From Aequorivita soesokkakensis (GTDB lineage Bacteria; Bacteroidota; Bacteroidia; Flavobacteriales; Flavobacteriaceae): a DNA stretch of 64,000 nt. Below the pieces are notes generated by a model. The model saw only the letters and a program-made list of their open reading frames with translations, had not been told where the DNA came from and searched no databases. Below, one piece after another: positions 7,083 to 34,778 of this stretch. The DNA lies in contig NZ_LXIE01000011.1 in NCBI RefSeq assembly GCF_001641085.1, forward strand, positions 1 through 64,000, in the 5' to 3' direction. The position numbers and the translations under genes are program-made. How positions within the stretch are numbered: the stretch's first letter is position 1; the number at the start of each line of letters is the position of its first letter.

Positions 7083-7131
7083 GTTTCGACAGGCTCAGCA
7101 TGACATTTGCTTCGGTAGGCCTAGCACGACA
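7083..7131. repeat. Variant copy of the dispersed REP-like element
   Basis: TTTCGACAGGCTCAGCATGACA, followed by a second related half (TTCGGTAGGCCTAGCACGACA), lies about 20 bp beyond the stop codon of the minus-strand gene at 7153. It is a diverged member of the family whose best copies lie at 19064 and 37549. Confidence 0.55.
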
Positions 7132-11378: not shown

Positions 11379-11468
11379 TTCTTTATTTTTTTGCGAAGGT
11401 AACATGGATTGTTGGAATTTTGGATTTTTGGATTTTTTTGGAATTTGGAATTTTATAACAATAAAGCA

Positions 11469-11491
11469 CTTCGACTGCGCTCAGTGTGACA
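11469..11491. repeat. Solo half of the dispersed REP-like element
   Basis: CTTCGACTGCGCTCAGTGTG followed by ACA matches the right arm of the dispersed palindrome. It ends 2 bp from the TAA stop codon of the NADPH dehydrogenase gene, as several other copies do. A period-7/8 T-rich stretch (TTTGGAA-type) lies just to its left. Confidence 0.75.
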
Positions 11492-12561: not shown

Positions 12562-12606
12562 ATTTATTATTAATTCTTTATTGCTATTATTTATTTTTTG
12601 ATTGGT

Positions 12607-12629
12607 CTTCGACTGCGCTCAGACTGACA
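12607..12629. repeat. Solo half of the REP-like element overlapping a gene end
   Basis: CTTCGACTGCGCTCAGACTG followed by ACA is the right arm of the dispersed element. Read on the minus strand its TGTCAGTCTGA supplies part of the last codons and the TGA stop of the gene at 12619-12951. The element has therefore become part of a coding sequence. Confidence 0.75.
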
Positions 12630-12951
12630 GAAATTTAAAAAATCCATACTTCTTTCTGTTTTTTAAATATTCTAAATCGTTTTCGAAGTGATATGCTTCT
12701 CTTTCAAAGGAAATATTCCTGTAAGCTTTATGGCGATCTTGATATTGAATTAATCGAAGCAAAAATTCAAGTCCGTAAAATAAATAGAAAAAAACAACCA
12801 ATAATTCTGCCTGTTGGCGAAGGTGAATTTGTTCGTGATTTAAAAAAACAACATCCTCCTTTTGACCGTGATGCTTTAAAACTATAAAAGGCCAAAGCGT
12901 CATTCCTGTGAAGTTTTTTCGGAGAAGTTTTGGACTGACTATTAGGATCAA
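12619..12951 (-). CDS. Small HExxH-containing membrane-associated protein
   Basis: This 110-residue protein has a zinc-metallopeptidase-like motif, LNHEQIHLRQQ, at about residues 38-48 and a hydrophobic segment AELLVVFFYLFYGLEFLL directly after it. This resembles the catalytic core of M56/BlaR1-type peptidases, where HExxH sits next to a membrane helix, but the protein is far shorter and lacks the other helices. Translation probably starts at a TTG at 12951; the next ATG would remove 16 residues. Its last residues and stop codon lie in a REP-like repeat. Whether it is catalytic is unknown. Confidence 0.6.
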   Translation of the reverse strand: MILIVSPKLLRKNFTGMTLWPFIVLKHHGQKEDVVFLNHEQIHLRQQAELLVVFFYLFYGLEFLLRLIQYQDRHKAYRNISFEREAYHFENDLEYLKNRKKYGFFKFLSV

Positions 12952-16685: not shown

Positions 16686-19052
16686 ATGACAAAACTTTAT
16701 TTGTCCCTTTTGGGACTGCTTATTACTGTATCTGTATTTGGTCAAGACAAACTTTCTGGAAAAATATATGATGCAGCCAACAACACCCCTTTGGTCGGGG
16801 CCAAAATAGAAATGAACGGCGCAGAGGTTTCCAGCACAGATGCTAGCGGAAACTTTACAGTTCCTTGTTCTGGAAACCAAACGATCAACATCAGTTATAT
16901 TGGTTTTGAAACAACCAGCATTAATGTTAAAAACTGTTCGGAATTTTTGAATATTGGTTTAAAAACTTCTGTAAACGCGCTGGATGAAGTACAGCTTAGC
17001 GGAACTTTAGACAACAATAAAAAGGTGCTTGACAAACCCCTGTCCGTAATCCATCTTGAAGAAAAAGAGTTGAAACGAGGCACAGGATTATACCTAGACG
17101 ATGCTATAAACGCAAACGTTCCCGGGGTGATTATGACCCGAAGAGGGGTTTCCTCTGGACAACAATTCAACATTCGTGGTTATGGAAATGGCGTAGGCTT
17201 TAAAGGCGCGACCAACAACTTTGACGGTCAAGGCTACAAAGTGTATTACAACAATATTCCGCTTACCGATGCGGAAGGAATTACAATGCTGGATGATATC
17301 GATTTCGGCTCCGTAGGAAGTGTTGATGTAATTAAAGGTCCAGCAGGTTCCTTATATGGCTTTGCTATTGCAGGGGTTGTAAACCTGACAACTATTCGCC
17401 CAGAAAAAGGTCAATCTTCTTTAGGTGAAAAAGTGACTGTTGGAAGCTATGGTTTGGCGCGTTTTACCACCCAGTTGCAAATGGGCCTTGAAAAATCATC
17501 GGTTTTGTTGAACTACGGCCACCAAATTTCTGATGGATATTTGGACCACAATGCATCCACCAAAGACTTTTTGAATGCCGTTTTGGATTTTCACCCAAGT
17601 GAAAAGCAATCAGTTAGCACCTATTTCGGGTTTAGCAATAGTTACGACGAACGCGGTGGCGAGCTTACCATTGGCCAATACGACACCTTGGATTACAGTG
17701 GAAACGCGCGTTACATAAAAAACAACGCCCATAGTGAAGTGATAAGCTTCCGTGCAGGTTTAAGCCATAAATACGATTTTACAAAATGGCTTTCAAATAC
17801 AACCACGGTTTACGGTTCAGGTTTAAATACCAATGCTAGTTCTGCGGGTGGTTGGACAGATAAAGACCCAATTAATTATGGAACTCGTGTAACTTTTGAT
17901 CTTAATTTTGACTTAAGTGAAGACTTCAGTCTTTCGGGAGTTGCTGGTCTTGAATTTCAAGAGCAACGTTCACAATCCATTAGCTACGGAATGGTTGAAA
18001 ATCCAAACGATCCTGAAGGTTATAACATCATTGGCGCTGTGCGAAGCAACCAATATTCAAAATCGAAGAACAAATCGTTATTCACCGAATGGATTTTGAA
18101 AATGCCTTATGATATTTCCTTCACCGCCGGAGTTGGAAAAAGTTCTATGAACCTTGATCTTGAAGACCGCGCCTTCGATCCTACGAGTGGAAAGCCACAA
18201 ATAATTTCAGCAAATTATGAAGATTTGTTTTCGCCACATTTCGCGGTGAACAAAATCTTTAACGATAATATTTCAGTATATGCTTCTTATAGCAAGGGCT
18301 ACAAAGCGCCCGTTAGCGGTAACGTAATTATTGGAACTACTGGCGATTTAAATACAGGTTTGGAGCCAGAAGAAGGAGATCAGTTTGAAATCGGTTCGAA
18401 AGGAAATCTATTGGACAGCAAATTGCATTATGAAGTTGCTTTGTTTCAAGCGAAGTTCAAAAATAAATTCACCTCCGTTGCAGTTCCTGCTGGCGATGGC
18501 ACAACGCTTTACTCATACATAGCGAACGGCGGCGAATTGAACAATAAAGGCTTAGAAGCATTGGTAAAATATACCGCTTATGAGTCTGCAACTGGTTTCT
18601 TCGAAAATGTGAGCCCCTATGTTAACGTTGCCTATTCTGACTTTAAATATGAAGATTTTGTATATCAATCCGTTTCAAGAGAAGGTGAATTGGTAACTGC
18701 AGATTATAGTGGAAAAGCCGTTGCAGGCGTTGCTCCATGGGTTGTAAATGCTGGGGTTGATTTCAACACCAATCTTGGCCTATATGGAACTGTTAACTAT
18801 GCTTATCACGACCCAGTTCCGTTTACTTCAGATGGTTTAAATGTAGCGGACAGCTACAGTTTACTGAATGCAAAACTTGGTTACAGAATAAGTTTCGGCC
18901 ATTTTGACCTTGATGCTTATGCAGGCGCTGATAACATTACAGGCGAAAAATATTACATTATGCTTTTCTTAAACCAATTGGATGATGCATACATTCCTGC
19001 GCCTTTGGATACCGTTTTTTATGGTGGACTTAATTTGAAATATAATTTTTAA
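16686..19052 (+). CDS. TonB-dependent outer-membrane receptor (heme/iron-complex type)
   Basis: This 788-residue receptor starts with a signal peptide (to about residue 19, VSVFGQ). An N-terminal carboxypeptidase-D-regulatory-like domain follows (about 22-100, GKIYDAANNTPLVGAKIEM), then the plug (about 115-245, with VPGVIMTRRGV, FNIRGYGNGVGF and DVIKGPAGSLYGFAIAGVVN) and a beta-barrel ending in LNLKYNF. The barrel ends in an aromatic residue, as expected. Downstream genes encode a heme-type binding protein, permease and ATPase, so the likely substrate is heme or a ferric complex. The ligand cannot be fixed from the sequence. I saw no cobalamin riboswitch and no obvious Fur box in the 90-bp leader. 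Confidence 0.9.
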   Translation: MTKLYLSLLGLLITVSVFGQDKLSGKIYDAANNTPLVGAKIEMNGAEVSSTDASGNFTVPCSGNQTINISYIGFETTSINVKNCSEFLNIGLKTSVNALDEVQLSGTLDNNKKVLDKPLSVIHLEEKELKRGTGLYLDDAINANVPGVIMTRRGVSSGQQFNIRGYGNGVGFKGATNNFDGQGYKVYYNNIPLTDAEGITMLDDIDFGSVGSVDVIKGPAGSLYGFAIAGVVNLTTIRPEKGQSSLGEKVTVGSYGLARFTTQLQMGLEKSSVLLNYGHQISDGYLDHNASTKDFLNAVLDFHPSEKQSVSTYFGFSNSYDERGGELTIGQYDTLDYSGNARYIKNNAHSEVISFRAGLSHKYDFTKWLSNTTTVYGSGLNTNASSAGGWTDKDPINYGTRVTFDLNFDLSEDFSLSGVAGLEFQEQRSQSISYGMVENPNDPEGYNIIGAVRSNQYSKSKNKSLFTEWILKMPYDISFTAGVGKSSMNLDLEDRAFDPTSGKPQIISANYEDLFSPHFAVNKIFNDNISVYASYSKGYKAPVSGNVIIGTTGDLNTGLEPEEGDQFEIGSKGNLLDSKLHYEVALFQAKFKNKFTSVAVPAGDGTTLYSYIANGGELNNKGLEALVKYTAYESATGFFENVSPYVNVAYSDFKYEDFVYQSVSREGELVTADYSGKAVAGVAPWVVNAGVDFNTNLGLYGTVNYAYHDPVPFTSDGLNVADSYSLLNAKLGYRISFGHFDLDAYAGADNITGEKYYIMLFLNQLDDAYIPAPLDTVFYGGLNLKYNF

Positions 19053-19063
19053 AAGTTCAAATA

Positions 19064-19120
19064 TCAGGTTGAGCGCAGTCGAAACCAAATGGGTAGTTCT
19101 CGACTGCGCTCGAACTGACA
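19064..19120. repeat. Full dispersed REP-like palindrome
   Basis: Left arm TCAGGTTGAGCGCAGTCGAA and right arm TTCTCGACTGCGCTCGAACT-GACA are inverted repeats of over 20 bp around a short centre. It lies 12 bp after the receptor stop codon and 28 bp before the binding-protein gene, inside the uptake operon. It could attenuate transcription or set the 3' end of the receptor mRNA. Confidence 0.85.
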
Positions 19121-19147
19121 AATCAAAATATTTTTAATTTAGAAAAA

Positions 19148-20032
19148 ATGAAGAAAACAATCCTATCCATCATCTGCGTATTGTCCCTCGTTTCCTGCGG
19201 AAGATTTGGAAACGAAGACAAAAAGAAAGATAATGAAGAGCGCATTGTTTGTATCTCAAAACAATACAGCGAGATAATTTATGCGCTTGGAGCGGAAGAA
19301 AATATAGTTGCCGTTGATGTCTCCAGCACCTACCCTCCCGAAATAAAAGATTTGCCAACAATAGGCTATCACCGTGCGCTTGCCGCGGAACCCATTCTTT
19401 CCATGAAACCAACCTTGATTTTGGAAGACAACAACATTGGGCCAGAACATGTGGTTACACAGTTAAAGGATTTAAAAATTCCGATGAAACAATTCGGGCA
19501 ATATGAAAACACCATTGCAGGAACAGATTCGTTGATTCGCGAAATGGGCAACTATTTTCACAAAGAAAAAAAAGCCGAGGAACTCTGCAAAAAATTGGAT
19601 GCAGATATGAATTACGCCAAACAACAAGCGCTTTGGTATGAAAAGAAACCAAAGGTTTTGGTAATACATTTTGGACAGGCAAACAATATTTATTTGGTAA
19701 TGACCAAAAACAGTACCGCCGGAAAATTGATTGATTGGGCTGGCGGCGAAATGGCCGTTGATGGCGAACGCGGCATGATACAATTTTCACCCGAAGTGGT
19801 TGCGCAAAGCGACCCAGATGTAATCTTGCTGACAGATTTTGGTTACGATAAATTAGGTTCAACAGAAGGAGTGGGAACACTTCCTGGAATTTCAAGCACT
19901 CGAGCTTTTAAGGAAGGAAAAGTTTACCGTGTTGAGGAACACGATATGGTTTATTTAGGGCCAAGAACTGGGAAGAATATTATTGAATTACAAAATTTAA
20001 TACACGAAGGTGAAGAAAAAAAGCAACTATAA
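19148..20032 (+). CDS. hmuT: Heme/iron ABC transporter substrate-binding lipoprotein (HmuT-like)
   Basis: This 294-residue protein has a lipoprotein signal (hydrophobic stretch then LVSCG, cysteine at about residue 18). Its periplasmic-binding-protein class III fold includes RIVCISKQYSEIIYALGAEE, TIGYHRALAAEPILSMKPTL and SDPDVILLTDFGYDKLG. The GYHRALAAE-type segment is typical of HmuT-like hemin-binding proteins, which pass ligand from the receptor to the permease. It overlaps the permease gene by 23 bp, which suggests tight coupling. The alternative is a siderophore or cobalamin binder of the same fold. Confidence 0.8.
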   Translation: MKKTILSIICVLSLVSCGRFGNEDKKKDNEERIVCISKQYSEIIYALGAEENIVAVDVSSTYPPEIKDLPTIGYHRALAAEPILSMKPTLILEDNNIGPEHVVTQLKDLKIPMKQFGQYENTIAGTDSLIREMGNYFHKEKKAEELCKKLDADMNYAKQQALWYEKKPKVLVIHFGQANNIYLVMTKNSTAGKLIDWAGGEMAVDGERGMIQFSPEVVAQSDPDVILLTDFGYDKLGSTEGVGTLPGISSTRAFKEGKVYRVEEHDMVYLGPRTGKNIIELQNLIHEGEEKKQL

Positions 20033-21041
20033 AGGAACATTTCCAATTCTGTTGATCCTTTTGGTGATAATCACTTTTTTCTCCATTCGGTATGGCGCTG
20101 TTTCCATTTCGTTGGAAGAGATATTTTCTTCTTGCAGAAAATTCTTTACCGAACCCGAAAGTATGGATCTAACCGAACGTATTTTTATGGAAATACGTTT
20201 ACCGCGAGCAATACTCTGCATTTTTGTGGGTGCAAGTTTAGCAGTTGGCGGAACTTTATTACAAGCTCTTTTTCGAAATCCCATTGTAGAGCCCGGGCTT
20301 ATTGGTACTTCGTGCGGCGCGGCTTTTGGGGCGGCTTTGTATTTCGCTTTGGGAGCTACTTTTGGATTTAGTGTTGGAAAATGGACACTTCCTTTAGCTG
20401 CTTGTTTGGGAGCATTGCTATCAACAAGTTTGGTGTTTTTTCTTTCGCAATCGCGCAATAGTGGCAAAAGTTCCATTGTAGCTTTATTGCTTACGGGAAT
20501 TGCCATAAATGCACTCTTTTTAAGCGGCGTTGGATTTTTAAGTTACATAGCCCGCGATCCACAAGCGCGTTCCATTGTTTTTTGGAATCTCGGAACCTTG
20601 AGCGGTGCCAATTGGACTTCCGTTTTAATCGTTGGAATCTCTACTGTTGGAACCATTTTAATTTCCCTTCGCTATGCAAAACATTTAAATGCGCTGATGA
20701 TTGGCGAAGAAGAAGCTCAATTTCTCGGTGTAAATATAAAAAGCCTTAAATGGAAAGTCTTGCTCATCAACGTAATTATGGTAGCTGTGGCAACGGCTTT
20801 TGTAGGGGTTATCAGTTTTGTGGGCTTAATAGTACCGCATCTTTTAAGAATTATTAACGGCAGCGACAACCGTTTCCTTATTCGGAATAGTGCAATACTT
20901 GGCGGAATACTTTTGTGTGTGGCAGACTTAATTTCAAGAATGGTTTTGCGCCCTGCGGAACTGCCTATAGGTATTGTAACATCAGTGGTTGGTGTGCCGA
21001 TTTTTATCTTTTTGTTGCAACGGAAAAATTACTTTTTTTAA
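20010..21041 (+). CDS. hmuU: FecCD-family ABC transporter permease (HmuU-like)
   Basis: This 343-residue inner-membrane permease has about nine or ten helices. Signature segments of the FecCD/BtuC family are LPRAILCIFVGASLAVGGTL and LQALFRNPIVEPGLIGTSCG, followed later by GVISFVGLIVPHLLR, the coupling-helix region that contacts the ATPase. Start is a GTG at 20010 inside the end of the binding-protein gene. It forms the translocation pore for the heme-type importer. Neighbouring genes supply the ATPase and the periplasmic binding protein. Confidence 0.85.
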   Translation: MKKKSNYKGTFPILLILLVIITFFSIRYGAVSISLEEIFSSCRKFFTEPESMDLTERIFMEIRLPRAILCIFVGASLAVGGTLLQALFRNPIVEPGLIGTSCGAAFGAALYFALGATFGFSVGKWTLPLAACLGALLSTSLVFFLSQSRNSGKSSIVALLLTGIAINALFLSGVGFLSYIARDPQARSIVFWNLGTLSGANWTSVLIVGISTVGTILISLRYAKHLNALMIGEEEAQFLGVNIKSLKWKVLLINVIMVAVATAFVGVISFVGLIVPHLLRIINGSDNRFLIRNSAILGGILLCVADLISRMVLRPAELPIGIVTSVVGVPIFIFLLQRKNYFF

Positions 21042-21052
21042 ATATATAAACA

Positions 21053-21125
21053 TGTCCCTTCAAGCGCAGTCGAGAAGTCAATTAAATTTCAAAAGAGAAA
21101 GGTCTCGACTGTGCTCGACCTGACA
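21053..21125. repeat. Full REP-like palindrome with longer centre
   Basis: Left arm TGTCCCTTCAAGCGCAGTCG and right arm GTCTCGACTGTGCTCGACCT-GACA flank about 25 bp. It fills the gap between the permease and ATPase genes, so the uptake operon contains two copies of this element. Confidence 0.8.
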
Positions 21126-21133
21126 AAATAAGA

Positions 21134-21910
21134 ATGATTCAAGCAAACAACATAACATACCGAATAGGAAGCAAAACAATTCTGAAGAATATTTCAGTAA
21201 ACTTTGAAGCAGGAAAGATAAACCTTATCCTCGGGCCAAATGGCGCGGGAAAATCTACGCTTGTAAAAGTAATTTGCAACCAACTGAAACCACAGGAAGG
21301 TTCTGTTTTTTATGAAGGCATTGACATCAGAAAAGCTTCTGTAGCAGAACTCGCCAAAGTACGAGCAGTACTTTCCCAAAACACAGAGCTCGCTTTTCCC
21401 CTAAAAGTAAAAGAAGTAGTAATGATGGGCCGTTACCCACATTTCTCAGTAAATCCAACAGCAAAAGATGAGCAGGCCGTTGAAGAAGCAATGCATTTTT
21501 TTGATGTTGAAGGAATGGCAGAGCGTGATTACCTAACCCTGAGCGGCGGAGAAAAACAACGTGTTCACTTTGCGCGTGTGGTTTCGCAAATATGGTATCC
21601 TTCTGAAAATGGTTGTAGATATTTGTTTTTGGACGAGCCGTTAACTTTTTTGGATGTGCATTACCAGTTTCAGTTTATGCACAAACTACGTGAACTTTTA
21701 AAACAACAGGATTTGGTAATTGTTGGTGTGGTTCACGACCTTAATCTCGCCGCAAAGTTTGCAGATCATTTGGTTCTTTTAAATAACGGCGAACTTCTGT
21801 CCGCAGGTACAAAAACGGAAGTGCTTACCCAAGAAAACATGAAAACCGCCTACCGTTTGGAACCCGTAATCCATAATGACGAAAGGGGTATGTATTTATT
21901 TTTTGAATAA
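21134..21910 (+). CDS. hmuV: Heme ABC transporter ATP-binding protein (HmuV-like)
   Basis: This 258-residue ABC ATPase has Walker A GPNGAGKST (about residues 35-43), a Q-loop at SQNTELAFPLKVKEVVMMGR, the signature LSGGEKQRVHFARVV, Walker B YLFLDEPLTFLDV and the H-loop VVHDLNLA. The sequence around the Q-loop and the short C-terminus fit the HmuV group. It powers import through the HmuU-like permease. It is the last gene of the operon and is followed directly by a strong bidirectional terminator. Confidence 0.9.
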   Translation: MIQANNITYRIGSKTILKNISVNFEAGKINLILGPNGAGKSTLVKVICNQLKPQEGSVFYEGIDIRKASVAELAKVRAVLSQNTELAFPLKVKEVVMMGRYPHFSVNPTAKDEQAVEEAMHFFDVEGMAERDYLTLSGGEKQRVHFARVVSQIWYPSENGCRYLFLDEPLTFLDVHYQFQFMHKLRELLKQQDLVIVGVVHDLNLAAKFADHLVLLNNGELLSAGTKTEVLTQENMKTAYRLEPVIHNDERGMYLFFE

Positions 21911-21946
21911 AAAAGCCCCCGAGTCACAACATCCCGGGAGCTTTTT
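21911..21946. terminator. Bidirectional terminator after the heme-uptake operon
   Basis: AAAAGCCCCCGAG and CCCGGGAGCTTTTT form a long stem with minor mismatches and an 8-11-nt loop, with A and T runs on both sides. It separates the convergent ATPase and type IX cargo genes. Confidence 0.8.
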
Positions 21947-21970
21947 CCCCTCACACATATAAACCTAAAA

Positions 21971-23017
21971 CTACTCTTTTACTATCTTTTTTGTCATAGT
22001 GCCTTTTTCAGTTTCTAGCTGAAGTATATACATTCCTTTTGCAAGATTTTCAATATTCATTTCACCATTTTCAAGCGTTGTCCCAGTATTCCTTCCCAAC
22101 ATATCAAAAAGGCTCGCACCTTTTATTTGTAAACCTTGTGGGGTATCAATTTTAATTACTTTAGAGGCAGGATTTGGATACACGGAGAAAGATTGCAAAT
22201 TCTGGTCTTCCACCCCAAGAGAGTTTTCCTTAATGACAAACAAGCTGTATTTTCTGGAACCGCCAAAACCGAGTTCGGTAACGGTGCCGGTACTTGTATT
22301 TACCGTATTGAAATAAGACCAGATTACCCCATTTCTGTTCTGAAGCACTGCGTAGAGTACATTTGTACTATGGTCCACGGAAAACCCACTGCGCACCGGG
22401 TAAAGTCCGCCGGGGTACATATTTCCTACGCTAGTGCCCACACCCGTGGCAATGTCAATTGTAAAAAGATCGCCAGAAACCGCGTCAGCAGCATATACTA
22501 TTCCGTTGTTATCAATTTCCATTGCCACAACGTTTGGGATTCCCGTACCTGTGCCTATTTCGGTCAATACGCCCGTAGTGAGATTAAGCGAATAAAAATG
22601 TGACCCATTCTCGTTATTGGGATCTGAGCTTATGGCGTAAAAAGTATCGTTGGTATAATTATAAGATAATTGGTTCATAAACTGACCGCCCACAATCCCC
22701 GAAACCGTGGCCGCATAATTCACAGCCCCAGTATTAAGGTCAATAATTCCCAAAACAAAATCTGGGGATTGGAATATAAAAGTATACATCACCCCGGCGT
22801 TGTTGTAATCGCCTCCCAGCATCGTAAAGGCGTTACTTGTAATCACAGTACCAAGTGGAAAATAAGGCCCCGCAAGTGGAATGGTGCCAAACTGGCCGGG
22901 ATTGGTAAACGTTTCCATTACGTAAACATCTGTTGCTGGATTTCTAAAATCCTGTGCCTTGGCAGCATTAGAAGTCAGTATAAAACTGAAAGCAAAAAGA
23001 AAGATAATTTTTTTCAT
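21971..23017 (-). CDS. Secreted beta-propeller-like protein with type IX sorting domain
   Basis: This 348-residue protein has a signal peptide (ending NAAKAQ), a central region of repeated beta-strand segments of the form DLNTGAVNYAATV, LNLTTGVLTEIGT and DIATGVGTSVG (about 40-residue spacing), and a C-terminal type A sorting domain beginning at FSVYPNPASK and ending TKKIVKE. The repeats resemble DUF4394/propeller-type surface proteins. It is expected to be exported by the type IX system encoded at 48.5-53.2 kb. The ligand is unknown. Confidence 0.8.
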   Translation of the reverse strand: MKKIIFLFAFSFILTSNAAKAQDFRNPATDVYVMETFTNPGQFGTIPLAGPYFPLGTVITSNAFTMLGGDYNNAGVMYTFIFQSPDFVLGIIDLNTGAVNYAATVSGIVGGQFMNQLSYNYTNDTFYAISSDPNNENGSHFYSLNLTTGVLTEIGTGTGIPNVVAMEIDNNGIVYAADAVSGDLFTIDIATGVGTSVGNMYPGGLYPVRSGFSVDHSTNVLYAVLQNRNGVIWSYFNTVNTSTGTVTELGFGGSRKYSLFVIKENSLGVEDQNLQSFSVYPNPASKVIKIDTPQGLQIKGASLFDMLGRNTGTTLENGEMNIENLAKGMYILQLETEKGTMTKKIVKE

Positions 23018-23128
23018 GATTTATGGTTTTTAAAGGATTATAACCATACATCGCGGGTTGGATGGAAATGTCATCATTGGTTTAGGTGAAAAATTTTGTA
23101 GTTTTAATCACATTAATGAAACTCACGT

Positions 23129-23338
23129 ATGGACAAACTCATAAACTTTTTAAAAAAAAATGCTACACTCAGTACTGTATTTATAATAGCAATCGTTTAT
23201 GTTGGCATCAACTTCATTTTCAGGGAAAGAATGGGGGCTATAGAAATTATAATTTCAATATTGACCATCTTATTTATCGTTTGGGGTTTTAACCTGCAGT
23301 TTTGGAAAAATAAAAGAAAAATTGACAGAGAAGAATGA
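23129..23338 (+). CDS. Small two-helix membrane protein
   Basis: This 69-residue protein has two predicted membrane helices (about residues 15-29 and 36-56) and positively charged ends. I do not recognise a family. It lies 26 bp upstream of the TonB-C-domain protein; an ATG at 23335 overlaps its stop codon, so the two are probably co-transcribed. Confidence 0.55.
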   Translation: MDKLINFLKKNATLSTVFIIAIVYVGINFIFRERMGAIEIIISILTILFIVWGFNLQFWKNKRKIDREE

Positions 23339-23364
23339 GTTTAAATTTTATTCAATTTAAAAAT

Positions 23365-23823
23365 ATGAAAACCAAAATCACCCTTTTATTTGCTTTTATA
23401 CTAACTACAATAAGTTTCGCACAAACTGCTGAAATGGAAATTTCTACAGAAACAACAGTAAATGAACCTATACCGTTTCAGATTGTGGAAGTTCCACCTC
23501 TCGCGCCAGACTGTAAAGTAAAGTGGAAAGTTGAAAAGCAAAAAAAATGCACCCTGGATTTCATTCTTAATCACGTAAATAGAAAACTTAATACAAATCT
23601 TGTTTCAGAATTGGGCTTAACTGGTTTTTTTAGAATAGATGTTACTTTTACTATAGATAAAGAAGGAAAGCCAAAAAATGTAAGTGCTTCCGGAGCACCG
23701 GAAATAATGAATCAAAATGCGGTAGAAGTAATTCAAGCACTCCCTACATTTACCCCGGCAATGCATAAAGGCGAAGCAGCCGAGGTTTACTTTAAATTTC
23801 CAATTGCATTTGATATTCAATAA
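23365..23823 (+). CDS. Secreted protein with TonB C-terminal-like domain
   Basis: This protein (about 152 residues) starts with a signal peptide, MKTKITLLFAFILTTISFAQ. A TonB-C-like domain occupies about residues 70-150, seen in FRIDVTFTIDKEGKPKNVSA and VIQALPTFTPAMHKGEAAEV. Unlike true TonB it has a cleavable signal rather than an N-terminal anchor and a Pro-rich linker, so it is unlikely to energise receptors directly. The start at 23365 is preferred over the ATG at 23335 because it exposes the signal peptide. Confidence 0.7.
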   Translation: MKTKITLLFAFILTTISFAQTAEMEISTETTVNEPIPFQIVEVPPLAPDCKVKWKVEKQKKCTLDFILNHVNRKLNTNLVSELGLTGFFRIDVTFTIDKEGKPKNVSASGAPEIMNQNAVEVIQALPTFTPAMHKGEAAEVYFKFPIAFDIQ

Positions 23824-23847
23824 AGTTGCTTCAGAAATTATTTTAAC

Positions 23848-24396
23848 ATGCTTCAACAACATATATTTATCATCCTGATTATTGGCTCTTTCTTTTCATG
23901 TAAAAATAACAACGGGAACCCCACCGCCCTTCTTCAAAAGCAGAACGAAATAATCTGCACAGACAACAGTTGTCATGGAACTTACATTGGGCCCGAATTC
24001 ACAAATGGTTCAGATGTGGCACATCAATTCTCAAACAAAATGTCTGCTGAAGTTGGTAACCAATTAAAGCAACTTTACAAAGAAGAAAAATATTCCAAAG
24101 TAGATTTCCAAAACATTGAAATGTCTACAAAAGGCATGGGCTCGGGAAATGTTACATACACTTTAACCATTCCCTTCAAAACTGTTGAAAAACCTTGTCA
24201 AGCCTATACATCTTTTGACCATGTGGGCGGCTGGAACCACACTCCTGCATTGGCTTCAAGAAAAAACCAATTAGCTAAGGTTTTATTGGAAGGTGAAAAT
24301 CTTGATATAAGCGAATTAAAAACAACTTCAGAAGGTCTGCAGGAATATTGGATACAGTGGAAGAATAAAGAAATTCAGTTAGACTGTTTAAAATAG
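23848..24396 (+). CDS. Hypothetical lipoprotein
   Basis: This 182-residue protein has a short N-terminal hydrophobic segment ending in FFSCK, a lipobox-like site with the cysteine at about residue 18. The mature part has two further cysteine-bearing segments (IICTDNSCHGTYIGPEF and VEKPCQAYTSF). I do not recognise a family. The segment FDHVGGWNHTPALASRK is rich in H and W. It lies 24 bp after the TonB-C-like protein and is probably in the same transcription unit. Confidence 0.55.
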   Translation: MLQQHIFIILIIGSFFSCKNNNGNPTALLQKQNEIICTDNSCHGTYIGPEFTNGSDVAHQFSNKMSAEVGNQLKQLYKEEKYSKVDFQNIEMSTKGMGSGNVTYTLTIPFKTVEKPCQAYTSFDHVGGWNHTPALASRKNQLAKVLLEGENLDISELKTTSEGLQEYWIQWKNKEIQLDCLK

Positions 24397-24567
24397 AGGC
24401 AATAAATCTTTTTTGTAGCTTTAAACTTCAAAAAAATAATTTTCTGTTTGATAATGTTTTCGGGACACAACTTTAAGTTTTACAATAGAATAGAAAAAAA
24501 AGGAAATGCTTTCTCGGCGAGCAGATATGCGGCTTGGGAAGCAAAGAATAAAAAAAAACTTCAAAAA

Positions 24568-24957
24568 ATGATAAAAATTGATCCCATAATAGCCGTAAAA
24601 GATGTAGAAGCCAGCTCGCAGTGGTATCAATCCGTTTTTGGTTGTAAGAGAAAGCACGGCGGCGATGAATTTGCGGTTTTAGTTTCTGAAAAGGATGAAG
24701 TTTTTATCTGCCTGCACAAATGGGGCGCTCACGAACATCCTACTATGATTAATCCTTCAATTACTCCCGGCAATGGGTTACTACTTTATTTTAAGACCGA
24801 CAATATGGAGAAAATTCGTAAAAACGCTGACAAAACCGGTACTTCCATTGAAGAAGAAATTCACCTAAACCCAAACTCCACAAAAAAGGAATTTTCACTA
24901 CGGGATCCCGACGGTTATTTCTGGACGATAACTGAATATCACGAATATGAAGGCTGA
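24568..24957 (+). CDS. VOC (glyoxalase/bleomycin-resistance) family protein
   Basis: This 129-residue protein has the paired beta-alpha-beta-beta-beta pattern of the VOC superfamily: IDPIIAVKDVEASSQWYQSV at the start and EFSLRDPDGYFWTITEY at the end. The terminal E and H positions could bind a metal. The substrate is unknown; a lyase, dioxygenase or binding role are all possible. The open frame continues 40 codons upstream of 24568, but that extension has no family resemblance, and 24568 places the first strand at the N-terminus as usual. Confidence 0.75.
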   Translation: MIKIDPIIAVKDVEASSQWYQSVFGCKRKHGGDEFAVLVSEKDEVFICLHKWGAHEHPTMINPSITPGNGLLLYFKTDNMEKIRKNADKTGTSIEEEIHLNPNSTKKEFSLRDPDGYFWTITEYHEYEG

Positions 24958-25060
24958 GTAAATTATTCCAAATCAATTTTTGAATAGTTTTGATTTCTAT
25001 AATTTTCAACAAATATTTATCTTTAGGTTAAAAGAAAAACTAATCTAAAAAATAATTGCA

Positions 25061-25267
25061 ATGAAAGATTTTAAAGTAGGCGACCACGTTAAATGGAATT
25101 CCGAAGCAGGCCACGTAAGTGGAAAAATTATAAAAGTACACCATTCAGATTTTCAATACAAAGGTTATACACACCATGCGAGCAAGGACGACCCACAGTA
25201 CGAAATAAAAAGCGACAAGACAGACCATATAGCCGCCCACAAAGGTTCCGCGCTTTCAAAGGTTTAA
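25061..25267 (+). CDS. DUF2945 (hypervirulence-associated Tudor-like) protein
   Basis: This 68-residue protein matches the DUF2945 family: KVGDHVKWNSEAGHVSGKII, then YEIKSDKTDHIAAHKGSALS. The domain is a small SH3/Tudor-like barrel of unknown function that is common in Bacteroidota and Proteobacteria. It is cytosolic and stands alone. It converges on the DUF1697 gene with a 9-bp gap and no clear terminator. Confidence 0.8.
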   Translation: MKDFKVGDHVKWNSEAGHVSGKIIKVHHSDFQYKGYTHHASKDDPQYEIKSDKTDHIAAHKGSALSKV

Positions 25268-25276
25268 TAGCAAAAA

Positions 25277-25798
25277 TTATTTTGCGAGTTCAATAAGTTT
25301 CGCGAGGGTGCGGTAGTTTCGGGTGGTGGCTTCAACTTTCAGCTTTTTCTCAAAAAAGTTGTTGTTGCATTTGGCAACGCCATATCCTTTGGAAGCAAAA
25401 AGATACACGCAATTTTCAGTAATATTGAATTCTTCGCCGGGGTACGTCTCTTGGCTAACTTTTTCTGTCAAATTTTTTGCGGGCGGTTCATTGAGCAAGA
25501 TAAAATAGGAAGCCTTTTTCTTTTCTTCGGAAAATGGACAGGCCGCAAGAATCCTTTCAATTTCAGAAACTGTTTTTACCAATACGGGAACTTCAAAACC
25601 GAACGATTTCTGTATGCCCTTGCTGATTTTTTCAGTTAAACCGTTTTTAGATTCCGAAGCAAAAACAACGTTTCCGCTCTGTATATAAGTAACAACATCA
25701 GCAAACCCCAACTCCTCCACAAGAAGTTTTAGGTCCGTCATTTTCATCTGTTTGTTGCCCACGTTTATTCCGCGCAACAGGGCGATGTAGGTTTGCAT
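25277..25798 (-). CDS. DUF1697 family protein
   Basis: This 173-residue protein begins MQTYIALLRGINVGNKQMKM and contains VVTYIQSGNVVF, the defining segments of DUF1697. The C-terminal RNYRTLAKLIELA is also conserved. The function is unknown. It starts one base after the stop codon of the RelE/ParE-type toxin gene, so the three genes at 25277-26304 are likely one operon. Confidence 0.85.
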   Translation of the reverse strand: MQTYIALLRGINVGNKQMKMTDLKLLVEELGFADVVTYIQSGNVVFASESKNGLTEKISKGIQKSFGFEVPVLVKTVSEIERILAACPFSEEKKKASYFILLNEPPAKNLTEKVSQETYPGEEFNITENCVYLFASKGYGVAKCNNNFFEKKLKVEATTRNYRTLAKLIELAK

Positions 25799-25799
25799 A

Positions 25800-26069
25800 T
25801 TAATAGGATTGGTGTTGATTTAAAATTCTCAATACGGTTATTGTTTCATTCACAACGTTATAATGAATCGAATATTTAAAATCTTTTAAGTGAACAATCC
25901 GAATATCTCCATAACGCACTTGAAACTGGAATGGATTGGATTGTATCCGCATCATCTGCAAATGAAAATCCTTATGAAATCTTGCACCTACACCTATGGC
26001 ACAAAAAAAACAATCAATAGTATTAAATTCAATATCCGCCTCCCGAGAAAATTCTAAATTAAAATCCAT
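25800..26069 (-). CDS. RelE/ParE-family toxin
   Basis: This 89-residue protein has the RelE/ParE fold pattern: an N-terminal beta-strand and helix (FSREADIEFNTIDCFF), then beta strands QVRYGDIRIVHL, YSIHYNVVNETITVLRIL. It overlaps the upstream antitoxin gene by 11 bp, the usual arrangement of type II systems. The likely action is gyrase poisoning or ribosome-dependent mRNA cleavage; which one cannot be told. The start at 26069 gives a normal family length. Confidence 0.75.
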   Translation of the reverse strand: MDFNLEFSREADIEFNTIDCFFCAIGVGARFHKDFHLQMMRIQSNPFQFQVRYGDIRIVHLKDFKYSIHYNVVNETITVLRILNQHQSY

Positions 26070-26304
26070 ACTTTTTTCGGATTTCAGAATATGGAATTGT
26101 TTCTAATGTCCCATTCTTTTGCCTTTCCAGCATATCATCCATCATCGCTTTGTATTCTTCGGAAGGTTCCGCAAAGTGAAGCGCCCTATCTTCAATCATA
26201 AATTCAAGATAATTCTTTAAGGAACGTTTTTGAAGTTTTGCCTGCACTTCAAGAATTGCAATCGCCTTATCATCTAGCTCGATCAATTTTTTTGTCTTTC
26301 CCAT
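26059..26304 (-). CDS. Type II antitoxin of the RelE/ParE-like pair
   Basis: This 81-residue protein starts with a short DNA-binding-like segment (KLIELDDKAIAILEVQAKLQ). The acidic C-terminus (EPSEEYKAMMDDMLERQKNG, then TLETIPYSEIRKKYGF) probably wraps the toxin. The start at 26304 is chosen because it lies two bases from an inverted repeat that would act as the operator; the longer frame upstream to 26400 would run through the promoter. It presumably represses its own promoter together with the toxin. Confidence 0.75.
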   Translation of the reverse strand: MGKTKKLIELDDKAIAILEVQAKLQKRSLKNYLEFMIEDRALHFAEPSEEYKAMMDDMLERQKNGTLETIPYSEIRKKYGF

Positions 26305-26305
26305 T

Positions 26306-26324
26306 GTATATAGATTATATATAC
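26306..26324. promoter_or_regulatory. Putative operator of the toxin-antitoxin operon
   Basis: GTATATA-GATTA-TATATAC is a perfect 7-bp inverted repeat with a 5-bp spacer, located between the -7 element and the antitoxin start codon. It fits autoregulation by an antitoxin dimer. Confidence 0.6.
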
Positions 26325-26355
26325 CAAATATATACAAATAGAGAATAAAATACAA
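26325..26355 (-). promoter_or_regulatory. Toxin-antitoxin promoter
   Basis: On the minus strand TTG, a 20-nt spacer and TATATTTG match the Bacteroidota consensus (the -7 element is a full TAnnTTTG). Transcription would start within or next to the GTATATA inverted repeat. Confidence 0.65.
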
Positions 26356-26363
26356 TAGAATAT

Positions 26364-27581
26364 TTACAGATTTTGCGCAACAATAAACCCACCCGTCCAA
26401 GCATTCTGAAAATTAAAGCCACCGGTAATTGCATCAATATTAAGCACTTCTCCAGCGAAATAAACGTTTTTGCAAATTCGGCTTTCAAAGGTTTTAAAGT
26501 TCACTTCCTTTAAATCCACGCCGCCTGCCGTCACAAATTCTTCCTTAAAAGTACTCTTTCCTGCAACCTCGAAAATTCCGCCCGTCAATTGGTTTGCTAT
26601 ATTCTGAAGGTTTTCGCGAGTGGCATCGGCCCAAGTGAGCCGTTCATCAATCCCCGAAGATTTAATGATACTTTGCCAGAGACGTTTTGGCAAATCGAAC
26701 TGGGCGTATTTATAAATGGTTTGTTTTCCCTGCAAAAGTTTTAATTCTTTCAAAGCATCCAAAACTTCTTCTTCGGAAAGCGTGTTCAACCAATTCACCT
26801 CAATCTTAAAATGATAGTTTAAAGGCTCCAAAACACGAGCACCCCAAGCCGAAAGTTTTAATATGGCGGGACCGCTCATCCCCCAATGGGTAATCAATAA
26901 TGGACCGCTACTTTCCAAAACCGTTTTCCCCTTCTCATCCAGCACTTTCACAGAAGCATCAGTACTTAAACCAGGCAAATCAATAATTCGCGAATCCTTA
27001 ATATTAAACGTAAAAAGCGAAGGAACAGCAGGAATAATGGTATGTCCCAAACCTTCCAGCAATTGCCAAATCTTCGGATTGCTGCCGGTAGCGACCACAA
27101 TTTTTTCTGCTGAATAAGTATCTGTGGTTGTATTGATTATGAAATGATCTGCTTCTTTTTGAATCTTTTTTACAGATTGATTAAGAAGAATATCAATCCC
27201 AAATTTTTTCGCTTCAAAAAGAAAACAATTGATTATCGTTTGCGAAGAATCCGAAACTGGAAACATTCTGCCGTCTTCCTCTATTTTAAGTTCCACGCCG
27301 CGTTTTTCAAACCATTCAATGGTATCGCCCGTCATAAAAGTATGAAACGGACCCAAAAGTTCCTTTTCGCCACGCGGATAATTTTGCGTCAATTCCTTCG
27401 GAAGAAATTCGGCGTGGGTTACGTTGCACCTTCCGCCGCCGGAAACTTTTACTTTGGTGAGCACTTCCTTTCCACGTTCGAGAATTATAATTTTAAGTTT
27501 CGGATTTTTTTCAGCAGCATTTATTGCCGTGAAAAACCCTGCAGCACCGCCGCCAATTATTATGACATCGGCCTGTTTCAA
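26364..27581 (-). CDS. HI0933-type FAD-dependent oxidoreductase
   Basis: This 405-residue flavoprotein has an N-terminal Rossmann dinucleotide site, VIIGGGAAGFFTAINAA, and the HI0933-family segments VSGGGRCNVTHA and GGRMFPVSDSS-like DGRMFPVSDSSQTIINC. The C-terminal FAD segment is NVYFAGEVLNIDAITGGFN. The substrate is unknown. The start is a TTG at 27581 that overlaps the TGA of the decarboxylase gene (TTGA), so the two are translationally coupled. The only other ATG choices would delete the FAD site. Confidence 0.85.
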   Translation of the reverse strand: MKQADVIIIGGGAAGFFTAINAAEKNPKLKIIILERGKEVLTKVKVSGGGRCNVTHAEFLPKELTQNYPRGEKELLGPFHTFMTGDTIEWFEKRGVELKIEEDGRMFPVSDSSQTIINCFLFEAKKFGIDILLNQSVKKIQKEADHFIINTTTDTYSAEKIVVATGSNPKIWQLLEGLGHTIIPAVPSLFTFNIKDSRIIDLPGLSTDASVKVLDEKGKTVLESSGPLLITHWGMSGPAILKLSAWGARVLEPLNYHFKIEVNWLNTLSEEEVLDALKELKLLQGKQTIYKYAQFDLPKRLWQSIIKSSGIDERLTWADATRENLQNIANQLTGGIFEVAGKSTFKEEFVTAGGVDLKEVNFKTFESRICKNVYFAGEVLNIDAITGGFNFQNAWTGGFIVAQNL

Positions 27582-29017
27582 GCCAGGACTTTTTCTTCCG
27601 CAAATGATTCGCAGAGAGTGATGGTTTCCTTTACATCATCAAGTGTTGTTCGCGGATTTATCAAACACATTCTTAAAACAACTTGTCCGTTAAGTACAGT
27701 AGTTACAAGCAACGCTTGTTTTGAATCCACAACATTTTGTGAAATGCGTTGGTTCAACGCATCCAGTTTTTTCTCTGAAAGTTTGTTGCCAATTGGGTTA
27801 TATCTAAAGTTGATGACCGCCAAAGTTGCGGGAGAAATAACTTCCCAATTTGAGCTTTTCCGAAGAAAACTTTCCGTCGCTTCTGCAAGTTTTACGTTAT
27901 AGGTAATTGCTTTTCGGAATTCACCCATTCCAAAGGTTTTTACTGACATGTAAAACTTCAATGCCCGGAAACGGCGCGTCAACTCAATGCCGTGGTCGTA
28001 AAAATTTATTTTGGAAGTATTGCCTTCAATATCGCGAAGATATTCAGGCTTTTCGGTGAAAGTTCCCTTCAACCACTTATGGTTTTTAATCAAAAGACAG
28101 CCAATTTCATAAGGTTGAAAAAACCATTTATGCGGGTCAACGGTTAGTGAATCTGCTTTTTCAATTCCTTTTAAAAGTTGTTTTCCGTTTTCGGAAAGGA
28201 TTGCAAAACCGCCGTAAGCCCCATCAATGTGGAACCAAATATCTTCTTTTTTACAGATTTTCGCGATATCGGAAAGCGGATCAACCGTGCCGGTGTTTGT
28301 TGTTCCAGCAGTTGCAATCAAGCAAAAAGGCTGCAAGCCTTCAAGTCTATCTTTTGCGATTGCGTTTTTCAATTTATTCAATGAAAACTTGAATTCGCTG
28401 TCCGTTGGAATCACACGAATTTGCTCTTTTCGAAAACCGAGAACGCGGATTGCCTTTATATTTGAAGAATGCGCTTGGTCTGAAAGATAGATCACCGCAT
28501 TGCTAAAATCGTCGCCACATTTCACTTTTCGAGCGGTCACCAAAGCAGTCAAATTCGCCATAGAACCGCCACTTGTAAAAATTCCTCCGCCTTTTTTCTG
28601 CGGAAAACCGAACATTTTTAAAAGCCAGTTCATCGTTACGATTTCCATTTCGGCAGCAGCCGGAGAAGCCGCCCAACCCCCTGAAAATATATTGAAGCCA
28701 GAAGCCAAACTATCTGCCATCGCGCTAATATAATTGCTGGGTCCGGGAACGAAAGAATATGATTTTGGGTGTGAAACGATGTTACTTTTGGTCATCACTT
28801 CGTCCAAAACAAACTTTAAAATTTTTTGTGGATCGCTTGCTTTTTCTGGGGCATCTTCAAGAAACAAAGTTTCCATTTCTTCCCTTGAACCCGAAACCAC
28901 AGGGAGTTTTTCATTCTGCGTTGCAAAGTGTTCTACAATGGCATCAACCACTTCATAACCATAGGTTTTCATTTCCTCTTTACTCAATTCCAGCGTAGCT
29001 TTATTCTGAATTTTCAC
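27578..29017 (-). CDS. Group II pyridoxal-phosphate amino-acid decarboxylase
   Basis: This 479-residue enzyme belongs to the aromatic-L-amino-acid/glutamate decarboxylase group. The PLP-binding lysine lies in SLTVDPHKWFFQPYEIGCLL. Upstream, WFHIDGAYGGFA carries the aspartate that binds the pyridine nitrogen, and FTSGGSMANLTALVTARK is the phosphate-binding segment. Expected activity is decarboxylation of an aromatic amino acid such as tryptophan or tyrosine, but substrate is not proved. Translation probably starts at a GTG at 29017. It is cytosolic and coupled to the FAD oxidoreductase. Confidence 0.85.
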   Translation of the reverse strand: MKIQNKATLELSKEEMKTYGYEVVDAIVEHFATQNEKLPVVSGSREEMETLFLEDAPEKASDPQKILKFVLDEVMTKSNIVSHPKSYSFVPGPSNYISAMADSLASGFNIFSGGWAASPAAAEMEIVTMNWLLKMFGFPQKKGGGIFTSGGSMANLTALVTARKVKCGDDFSNAVIYLSDQAHSSNIKAIRVLGFRKEQIRVIPTDSEFKFSLNKLKNAIAKDRLEGLQPFCLIATAGTTNTGTVDPLSDIAKICKKEDIWFHIDGAYGGFAILSENGKQLLKGIEKADSLTVDPHKWFFQPYEIGCLLIKNHKWLKGTFTEKPEYLRDIEGNTSKINFYDHGIELTRRFRALKFYMSVKTFGMGEFRKAITYNVKLAEATESFLRKSSNWEVISPATLAVINFRYNPIGNKLSEKKLDALNQRISQNVVDSKQALLVTTVLNGQVVLRMCLINPRTTLDDVKETITLCESFAEEKVLA

Positions 29018-29090
29018 GTGTTTCTTTTTTGAATTTTTTGAAAGTGCAAAATTAAGGTTTTAACAAAGGAATTTCGATCTTTAAACCAAT

Positions 29091-29121
29091 AAAAAATACC
29101 TTGACAATAAAGCCAAGGCAT
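29091..29121 (-). terminator. Rho-independent terminator after the beta-helix gene
   Basis: On the minus strand ATGCCTTG and CAAGGTAT form an 8-bp stem (one G-U) with a 10-nt loop, followed by a T-run. It lies after the stop codon of the gene at 29206 and before the decarboxylase start. Confidence 0.7.
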
Positions 29122-29131
29122 TTTAAAAACT

Positions 29132-29199
29132 TGTCCGTTCGAGCGAAGTCGAGAACTTTTACCTGGAAAAAGGAGGTCTCGAGTGCGCTTGACCAGACA
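29132..29199. repeat. Full REP-like palindrome
   Basis: Left arm TGTCCGTTCGAGCGAAGTCG and right arm TCTCGAGTGCGCTTGACCAG-ACA flank about 20 bp. It ends 6 bp from the stop codon of the secreted beta-helix gene. Confidence 0.75.
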
Positions 29200-29205
29200 T
29201 TTGTT

Positions 29206-30675
29206 CTATTCCACTATCATTTTCTTAGTTACGGTTTGCACATCGTTGCTGAAATTCACAAAATACAAACCTGAAGGAAGATTTATATGCAAAGTGTTTT
29301 GCCCTTCAGAAATAATTTCCGAAGAAATCAAATTGCCCTGAATTCCATAGACCGCAACCTTTTCAAAAGAATAAATATTATTGAAATTGATTTCGTTTTT
29401 CACAGGATTTGGATAAAAACTGAAGTTTTCAATGGTGTTATCCGCAACGCCCAAAACGCCACATTCAAATGGATCAAAAATAACTTCTCCCAAAGCTGGA
29501 TTGTCAACTATGTGAAAAATAACATCTTCCACTTGCTGCTCTGTGCTTTGTTGGTTTTCAATCCAGCAATTGTGTTTTGCTGAAATTGTATTTGCAGTAT
29601 TGTTATATAGCGCATAAACTACACCCCCGTTTTCGTTTTCAGCAAAAACATTTAGCCCAGGATTGTTTGAATCATCTCCAAGATTTACGGAAGCCGAGCC
29701 TTGTAGCGTAATTCCCCATAGGTTTCTTCGTATTTCATTTCCAGAGACAATAACGTCTGCACTTACCGATGAACTATTAAGGTTAATCCCGCTCCCACCA
29801 AGATTAGGATCACCTTGGATATTGTTGTCTTCAATGACATTATTAGTGATTTCCGCAGAATCATTGGTTCCAAGAATGGTAATTCCATAGCGATTACCGC
29901 GAATAATGTTATTGTCTATAACCACATTTACATTGCCGCCAACAAAGTTAGCTATGGCAATACCGCCGGCTTGTTCCAAAGCAGGATCGCCGATGATTGT
30001 ATTTTGAATAATTTCCAAAGGTTCATTAGCCAAGGTTGTACCCAAATTTATTTGCGGACGGTTGCTATTGGCTTGGTTATTACCCTCAATCATATTATTG
30101 AAAATATAGGCTGAAACAACTGAATTTGCTGCAGAACCGATTGCAGGATTTTCATTGAAAGAAATAGTGTTATTTGTGATTTGAGGCAGTCCTCGGGAAA
30201 GTTGGATAACTGCACTTGTAGTTGCGCCAGAAACATTATTTGTCAGCGTACAATTATCTATCGAAAAAGTTTCCGTCAAAACCCGAAGTCCGCCGCCGTA
30301 TTCAATAGTTGTATTACTGATATCTATAGTTGAAAATTCCTCAAAAAGGAAACCTTCGTAAGGGGCATTTTCATCCAAAGCCGTAATGGTTACCGCGTTT
30401 GAATTTATCGTAAATGCACCAAAAACAGTGATCAATTTGTCAGTATCAATTAAGAGCGTTAAATCGGAATCTATAATTACAGTATCATTTTCTGAAATAG
30501 TGAGATTTCCCAAAAGGGTATAATCATTTCCCGAAATAGTGATGGTTGTTGGGCTGGCTGCCGCAATATCGGCCAGCGTCCAAGTTACACCCGTATTTGG
30601 GGTGGTGTAATCCTGCGCAATTGCAATTGTGAAAGTTAAAAAGACTAATAAAGTACTGAGGATAATTTTTTTCAT
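29206..30675 (-). CDS. Secreted right-handed beta-helix protein with type IX sorting domain
   Basis: This protein (about 489 residues) has a signal peptide (MKKIILSTLLVFLTFTIAIA). A region of short repeats follows, such as ITNNVIEDNNI, VIDNNIIRGNRYGITILG and VSGNEIRRNLWGITLQG, the pattern of parallel beta-helix (pectate-lyase-like/NosD-type) proteins. The C-terminal type A sorting domain starts at FSFYPNPVKNEINF and ends TKKMIVE. It is predicted to be surface-anchored or secreted. No catalytic residues of a polysaccharide lyase can be assigned. The start at 30675 exposes the signal peptide; 16 extra codons exist upstream. Confidence 0.85.
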   Translation of the reverse strand: MKKIILSTLLVFLTFTIAIAQDYTTPNTGVTWTLADIAAASPTTITISGNDYTLLGNLTISENDTVIIDSDLTLLIDTDKLITVFGAFTINSNAVTITALDENAPYEGFLFEEFSTIDISNTTIEYGGGLRVLTETFSIDNCTLTNNVSGATTSAVIQLSRGLPQITNNTISFNENPAIGSAANSVVSAYIFNNMIEGNNQANSNRPQINLGTTLANEPLEIIQNTIIGDPALEQAGGIAIANFVGGNVNVVIDNNIIRGNRYGITILGTNDSAEITNNVIEDNNIQGDPNLGGSGINLNSSSVSADVIVSGNEIRRNLWGITLQGSASVNLGDDSNNPGLNVFAENENGGVVYALYNNTANTISAKHNCWIENQQSTEQQVEDVIFHIVDNPALGEVIFDPFECGVLGVADNTIENFSFYPNPVKNEINFNNIYSFEKVAVYGIQGNLISSEIISEGQNTLHINLPSGLYFVNFSNDVQTVTKKMIVE

Positions 30676-30772
30676 GAGTTTGTTTTTTTGAAGCCGTAAA
30701 AGTAGGAATATGTGTTTAAGCAAAAAAGATATTTGTATGCTTTAGCATTTTGAAAAAAACTAACTTTGAAAA

Positions 30773-31813: not shown

Positions 31814-31841
31814 AAAGCCCTTCATTTCTGAAGAGCTTTTT
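31812..31841 (+). terminator. Rho-independent terminator after the EEP-family gene
   Basis: AAAAAGCCCTTCA and TGAAGAGCTTTTT form a 13-bp stem with one mismatch and a 4-nt loop, directly overlapping the stop codon. The T-run is on the plus strand, and the A-run allows the opposite direction too. Confidence 0.85.
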
Positions 31842-31844
31842 ACT

Positions 31845-31884
31845 CTGTATAGGCGGAGACCCCGAGGCTTCGGGAGAACTCTCA
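31845..31884 (-). pseudogene. Remnant of a tRNA-Leu 3' end interrupted by a palindrome
   Basis: On the minus strand TGAGAGTTC and TCTCCGCCTATAC match the T-arm and acceptor 3' half of the intact tRNA-Leu 62 bp away. They are separated by an insertion holding the palindrome CCCGAAGCCTCGGG. It cannot fold as a tRNA and is taken as a partial duplication. Confidence 0.55.
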
Positions 31885-31906
31885 GAACCAAATCTTTTTT
31901 AAAAAC

Positions 31907-31940
31907 AAAAAAGCTGACTCGTAAAAGTCAGCTTTTTTTT
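31907..31940 (-). terminator. Terminator of the tRNA-Leu gene
   Basis: AAAAAAGCTGACT and AGTCAGCTTTTTT form a perfect stem of 13 bp with a short CGTAAA loop, just after the tRNA 3' end on the minus strand. Confidence 0.85.
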
Positions 31941-31945
31941 ATTTG

Positions 31946-34776: not shown

Positions 34777-34778
34777 GT

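Follow-up and report, generated by a model that had tools for sequence, protein, structure and literature searches.

TGTC-tagged REP-like palindromes of Aequorivita soesokkakensis: a dispersed, probably mobile family with a preference for the 3' ends of genes

The palindromic repeats dispersed over the window, the whole 64,000-nt stretch of the A. soesokkakensis genome that was analysed, were found to be REPs of a family that carries a TGTC tag. The sites are not conserved in relatives, genes that flank a copy may be joined directly in other species, one unit has been inserted into another and units lie in frame within genes, and these observations together indicated that the REPs are mobile. 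It seems rather probable that a trans-acting activity other than a RAYT transposase copies the unit as a hairpin of single-stranded DNA, and that the sites at 3' ends and in protein linkers are the ones which survive selection.

Copies in the window and anatomy of the unit

An earlier note had listed ten positions in the window, and a copy or a remnant was present at all ten; the core GAGCGCAGTCGA was detected at eight of them when up to two mismatches were allowed. At up to one mismatch the window contains 11 cores against 0.09 expected, a number that none of 100 shuffles reached. The genome-wide count proposed in that note returned 84 exact cores in the genome holding the window (G000; 3.19 Mb, 51 contigs, 99.77% complete) and none with the reversed control, and as eight of the 84 fall in the window, this stretch is rich in cores. 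The copies in the window are as follows.

19062-19120, no single strand: head-to-head dimer of a plus-strand unit (19062-19087; tag mutated to TATC, stem GGTT/AACC) and a minus-strand unit (19095-19120; stem GTTC/GAAC)
21053-21125, no single strand: head-to-head dimer of a CTTC unit and a GGTC unit, between two co-directional transporter genes
29132-29199, no single strand: head-to-head dimer of a GTTC unit and a GGTC unit, slightly decayed, with 6 bp between its end and the stop codon of gene 29206-30723 on the minus strand
34778-34832, no single strand: head-to-head dimer in a convergent gap, with a decayed left unit (core GAGCGTAGCCGA) and a right unit with stem GTTC/GAAC
37549-37603, no single strand: head-to-head dimer of a GGTT unit and a GTTC unit, which takes up the whole gap between two convergent genes
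11466-11491, minus strand: single unit TGTC-A-CACT-core-AGTG; a stop codon lies 2 nt away
12604-12629, minus strand: single unit TGTC-A-GTCT-core-AGAC, overlapping the 3' end of the minus-strand ORF 12619-12951
35459-35484, minus strand: single unit with tag TGTC and stem TGCT/AGCG, a decayed partner lying just upstream on the plus strand; it falls upstream of, or in the N-terminal part of, the YjdM-like ORF 34833-35480 and is the sole 5' exception in the window
7084-7105, minus strand: half unit with the sister core GAGCCTGTCGA (other strand), by eye
56-76, plus strand: decayed left unit TGTCACCCTGAGAGAAGTCAA, by eye

The search of Rfam with window positions 18900-21300 gave no match up to E = 1. 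Tandem repeats of the heptamer GGTTTGT were also seen in the window, at 44879-44958 and 60730-60753.

The unit of ~25 nt consists of the TGTC tag, one base, a 4-bp stem arm, the 12-nt core and the complementary 4-base arm. Its anatomy was examined on 92 units (66 distinct) from the fetched stretches of G000, 84 with the exact core and eight with one mismatch, and the TGTC tag was found in 85 of the 92. The stems of the 66 distinct units occur in 22 arm combinations, yet 259 of 264 cells are paired, as compared with a mean of 158 and a maximum of 178 when the stem partners were shuffled, and with 97-152 when they were slid. The outermost fifth pair is formed in 23 of the 66 distinct units only, and the stem is thus 4 bp by covariation, a measure to which any further pairing inside the invariant core would be invisible. 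The maintenance of pairing across changing sequences indicated that the stem is conserved as structure, and the tag and the core as sequence. There are few stem types, with a skewed distribution (GGTC 23, GTTC 17 and GGTT 11 of the 92 units), and pyrimidines occupy the last two stem positions almost without exception; these features, together with the recurrence of the same types in another genus (G115), led us to reject the idea that stems are self-templated copies of the local target. When folded as DNA, the lone unit forms a weak hairpin that is not better than its shuffles, whereas the dimers fold better than shuffles, with single-strand z values of -7.7, -2.7, -3.0, -4.9 and -6.9 for the five window dimers from 19062 to 37549 in order. 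Sister units in which the 11-nt core GAGCTTGTCGA replaces the 12-nt core were observed at the 12607 and 37549 sites of G316, G317 and G319, and the stem of the sister unit of G316 at 12607 is identical to that of G000.

G000 contains 25 head-to-head dimers, five of them in the window. The stems within a dimer are unlike: no homodimer was found among the 24 that were scored (one with a degenerate partner was omitted), against 4.05 expected (P = 0.006). Identical stems would produce a long perfect palindrome, which is likely the reason for this rule. Contig C12 has two neighbouring dimers whose identity runs from the opening TGTC, across a unique spacer common to both, as far as four T beyond the final GACA. 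Their outer flanks differ, and identity that stops at these points marks the ends of the mobile unit. The remaining spacers in G000 are all different by eye, and because nearly every dimer spacer is unique, transposition of a whole dimer is rarely visible. An apparent restriction of the units to one strand in the complete genome G115 was discarded, since the surrounding stretches show ordinary head-to-head dimers. Tandem arrays of units were observed in G302 (C1:873500-875500, 1110000-1111500 and 3028500-3030500; L371, L373 and L374) and in G218 (C1:2576000-2579000; L370), with periods of ~115, 54, 100 and 40 bp.

Placement at gene ends and occupancy in relatives

When 64 loci of G000 were classified against the open frames of a simple ORF caller, 47 were intergenic (38 co-directional, eight convergent and one divergent) and 17 lay in open frames. 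The divergent gaps make up 29 of 165 intergenic regions and hold one of the 47 loci (binomial p = 0.0019). The preference for 3' ends, which the earlier note had described for the window, was confirmed genome-wide, with a median of 9 nt to the nearest stop and, overlaps being counted, 35 of 46 loci no farther than 30 nt from it. Of the 38 loci in co-directional gaps, 28 are closer to the stop than to the start (p = 0.005), and 25 lie at a distance of 15 nt or less against 18.0 expected, the maximum in 2000 simulations being 25; the lone units in such gaps have the tag on the strand of the gene in 14 of 17 cases. The family therefore shows the features of REPs in the general sense: a palindrome of 20-40 nt, a copy number in the tens to hundreds, and sites that are mostly intergenic and downstream of genes.

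The occupancy of eight window sites was monitored in the corresponding stretches of relatives, 20 or 29 per site. The unit was recognisable in 18 and absent in 75 of the 93 comparable relative-site pairs, in which both flanks lie close together. The detector accepted cores with up to two mismatches and passes over sister cores such as GAGCTTGTCGA. Inspection by eye revealed a sister-core unit in one of 12 relatives scored as empty at 37549 (G319) and in at least three of 17 at 12604 (G316, G312 and G317), and the 18 of 93 is therefore a minimum when the wider family is considered. Conservation of the copies in distant relatives would, according to the earlier note, have spoken for fixed regulatory elements; the sites are not conserved, and together with the multi-copy core this supported its description of the repeats as REP-like, dispersed and mobile.

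At site 21053 the unit is absent from nine of ten comparable relatives, G317 having a unit there, and seven relatives show a direct gene-gene junction, the two genes being separated by -9 to 3 nt. At site 37549 a terminator-like hairpin, in most cases with a T-run, was seen by eye in ten of the 12 relatives without a unit; the five relatives with a unit have both the unit and the terminator-like hairpin, and G000 has the dimer only. At this same site a 25-nt unit lies inside the core of another unit in G299 and G316, this core being uninterrupted in G317. Of the target-site duplication expected for a MITE, no trace was found at the nested site when the three were compared, and the flanks at 21053 are too diverged between relatives to show one. 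The dimer at 19062 is shared with G316 and, in decayed form, with G317, and the unit at 12604 is apparently clade-wide, some species having the same stem with a different core (by eye); units common to several species at these two sites suggest that the activity may be mostly old. At site 34779, another palindrome of the CCTCCCCTT..GGGGAGG type was seen in place of the TGTC units in G300, G303 and G315 (L096, L135 and L137).

Ten of the 17 open-frame loci were run against NCBIfam; three gave no match at threshold, and seven proved to be clear housekeeping proteins, namely PurL, LeuS, RNase R (rnr), GltX, MetG, 3-hydroxyacyl-CoA dehydrogenase and HemW. Nearly all the in-frame cases are single units, and the remaining open-frame loci, at frame ends or in short frames, may be non-coding. 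The metG gene exists in three states among 26 congeners including G000: without a unit (for example G311 and G314), with one unit (for example G218), and with the unit and an in-frame loop longer by 24 nt (G000, G024, G315, G306, G323 and G302), the DNA of G218 and G000 differing by a net 24 nt at the unit site. A different in-frame insert, PSGEMPLGRGG, was observed near this site in G319, G322 and G301. At the leuS site, G000 and G314 have the unit, and in eight relatives this place is taken by an in-frame DUF559-like domain, confirmed with Pfam in G304 (L297) and recognised by alignment in G319, G305, G317, G311, G312, G301 and G302. As a separate observation, RecG of G000 (C8:41500-45500; L372:637-3240, minus strand) has DUF559 (PF04480, residues 470-573) in frame between its helicase domains, and several of the 299 Flavobacteriaceae genomes have DUF559-bearing frames of 848-868 aa.

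The number of copies per genome varies from 4 to 104 among the 28 Aequorivita congeners, with 84 in G000, 42 in G299, 29 in G312 and 25 each in G218 and G310. The core is present in 181 of 299 Flavobacteriaceae genomes. A search with tag and core together matched 16 of 198 Bacteroidota genomes, most of them in the same family, and one genome from another family of the same class has 34 tagged copies. The tagged core was found in 19 stretches among 2.9 million viral contigs, and phages are thus not an obvious carrier.

Candidate mobilising activities and alternative explanations

In the reading that we prefer, the repeats would be non-autonomous DNA units of ~25 nt, which spread either singly or in head-to-head pairs. 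We infer a trans-acting activity which recognises and copies the unit as a single-stranded hairpin, presumably by reading the TGTC tag and the core and requiring the stem as structure only, and which would not be a RAYT/Y1 transposase encoded in G000. The distribution at 3' ends and in linkers would then be what survives selection, and a settled dimer could act as the 3'-end hairpin of a transcript; at 37549 it occupies the position of the terminator-like hairpin of the relatives.

The enzyme families examined as mobiliser were Y1_Tnp and DUF559. The search for a Y1 transposase, which the earlier note had proposed, gave no match in G000 with the PF01797 profile (Y1_Tnp) at E ≤ 1e-3, an absence seen in one draft genome of 51 contigs, with the controls, including E. 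coli, responding. The mobile REP-like nature and the 3'-end preference proposed in the note stood, and the RAYT as mobiliser did not. That these are RAYT-mobilised REPs whose transposase was lost from the lineage, or acts from other strains in a "hit and run" manner, is a possible but unlikely explanation. Y1-like matches at E ≤ 1e-3 occur in 19 of the 28 congeners, several strong and many weak (G000, G299, G218, G310, G312 and four others have none), and in 123 of the 299 Flavobacteriaceae, and the units may thus have been mobilised in trans in the past. A hairpin with a tetranucleotide on its 5' side, arranged in head-to-head dimers, is also what an HUH transposase would require, judging from passages of PMC6006769. 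However, the copy number does not track strong Y1 genes among the 299 Flavobacteriaceae (median of 3 copies with a match at E ≤ 1e-10 versus 1 without, p = 0.53; 4 versus 1 for any match at E ≤ 1e-3 versus none, p = 0.037), and the same-genus pairs discordant for Y1 are divided 12 to 11 with nine ties. Of the 49 Flavobacteriaceae genomes that reach 20 copies or more, 26 lack any Y1 match and 40 lack a strong one. No core with up to one mismatch was found within ~1.5 kb of the 35 best-scoring Y1 loci (three of 30 at two mismatches). The generalisation that such elements are usually mobilised by RAYT is a misfit here, as the tag is TGTC and not GTAG, G000 has no Y1 match and strong Y1 matches show no association with the copy number.

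A spread without any dedicated enzyme, by template switching in replication, gene conversion or repair between short homologous hairpins, was also considered and appears rather unlikely. The nested and core-swapped units, such as those at 12604 with the same stem and a different core, point to exchange at the core, and the metG stems that differ between species at one place and the tandem arrays of G302 and G218 agree with such a process. The clean, homology-free insertion at 21053, on the other hand, needs an activity that breaks and joins DNA, and ends that lie exactly at TGTC speak for a boundary that is recognised. More doubtful is some other, non-HUH route that inserts the 25-nt hairpin, prefers existing cores and remodels the linkers of essential proteins, possibly with the participation of mobile DUF559 domains; if it were true, the linkers of aminoacyl-tRNA synthetases would be continually remodelled.

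The participation of DUF559 (Vsr/MutH-like endonuclease domain) genes in the mobilisation is, taken by itself, quite improbable. The domain occurs in 154 of the 299 family genomes, and the carriers have more copies (median 4.5 versus 0, p = 1.5e-7; same-genus discordant pairs 18 to 5, p = 0.011), but it was chosen post hoc from the leuS alignment, where it stands in eight relatives at the site of the G000 unit, and phylogeny is only partly controlled in this comparison. Furthermore, 15 of the 49 genomes with at least 20 copies lack the domain, including G152 with its 104 copies, and cores with up to one mismatch lie near two of 30 DUF559 loci. Least probable is that the repeats are regulatory elements (terminators or stabilisers of the mRNA 3' end) fixed at their sites by selection. 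This would agree with the strong 3' placement, with the compensating changes that conserve the stem pairing and with the dimer at 37549 occupying the position of a terminator-like hairpin, but not with the 75 of 93 comparable pairs in which the unit is unrecognisable, with units between close co-directional genes, in coding frames and inside other units, or with the absence, by eye, of the T-run of an intrinsic terminator right after the hairpins at 19062 and 37549.

The REPs of Aequorivita, being present in 4-104 copies with empty and nested sites and in high-copy genomes without Y1, offer a workable test case for how such REPs are mobilised, and the metG and leuS series illustrate a stepwise reshaping of essential proteins by repeats. 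The mobiliser, the unlike-stem rule of the dimers, the nested insertion into the core and the in-frame insertion in essential genes are worth following.

Comparison with known REP systems

The units resemble the GTAG REPs/REPINs in the short hairpin with a 5' tetranucleotide, the head-to-head pairs and the 3'-end placement, but have TGTC where those have GT[AG]G at the 5' foot, and a cognate RAYT flanked by units was found neither in G000 nor at the 35 Y1 loci of relatives. The atypical structures of the Bacteroidetes subclass 2.6 TnpA-REP (PMC6006769) share the phylum and the repeated secondary structures, and differ in that G000 has no Y1 gene. The RepRanger survey (PMC12306157) includes Flavobacterium species and, in its accessible text, describes no such unit. 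Among open-licence papers, the core and sister-core strings were tied to no repeat paper as judged by the titles listed, and nothing was found on REPs with aminoacyl-tRNA synthetases in Bacteroidetes.

Of the known REP systems, the CGTC/TGTC-tagged superfamily comes closest. According to the consulted portion of the survey of Di Nocera, De Gregorio and Rocco (2013, PMC3733652), the CGTC repeats are apparently without a dedicated transposase, occur in Bacteroidetes and inside genes, are located 3' of genes and have a terminal unpaired CGTC often altered to TGTC; the head-to-head dimers predominate, heterodimers are common, and the stems are 8-9 bp with loops of 4-5 nt. Their mobiliser was left open in that portion, which also equates the Rickettsia palindromic elements RPE-4 and RPE-6 with CGTC REPs; these share with our units the in-frame insertion in genes and differ in host and core, and a further difference is that the in-frame copies seen here are nearly always single units. 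The unpaired tag, the head-to-head heterodimers and the 3' and in-gene sites were all found in G000, as was the lack of an associated transposase gene (here for Y1_Tnp and DUF559). The 8-9-bp stem with a 4-5-nt loop was not seen in the G000 units, a comparison based on the textual description in the survey. Because of this difference, the repeats of G000 are called a variant of the CGTC/TGTC-tagged REP superfamily, with a covarying stem of 4 bp and an invariant core of 12 nt, and not plain CGTC REPs.
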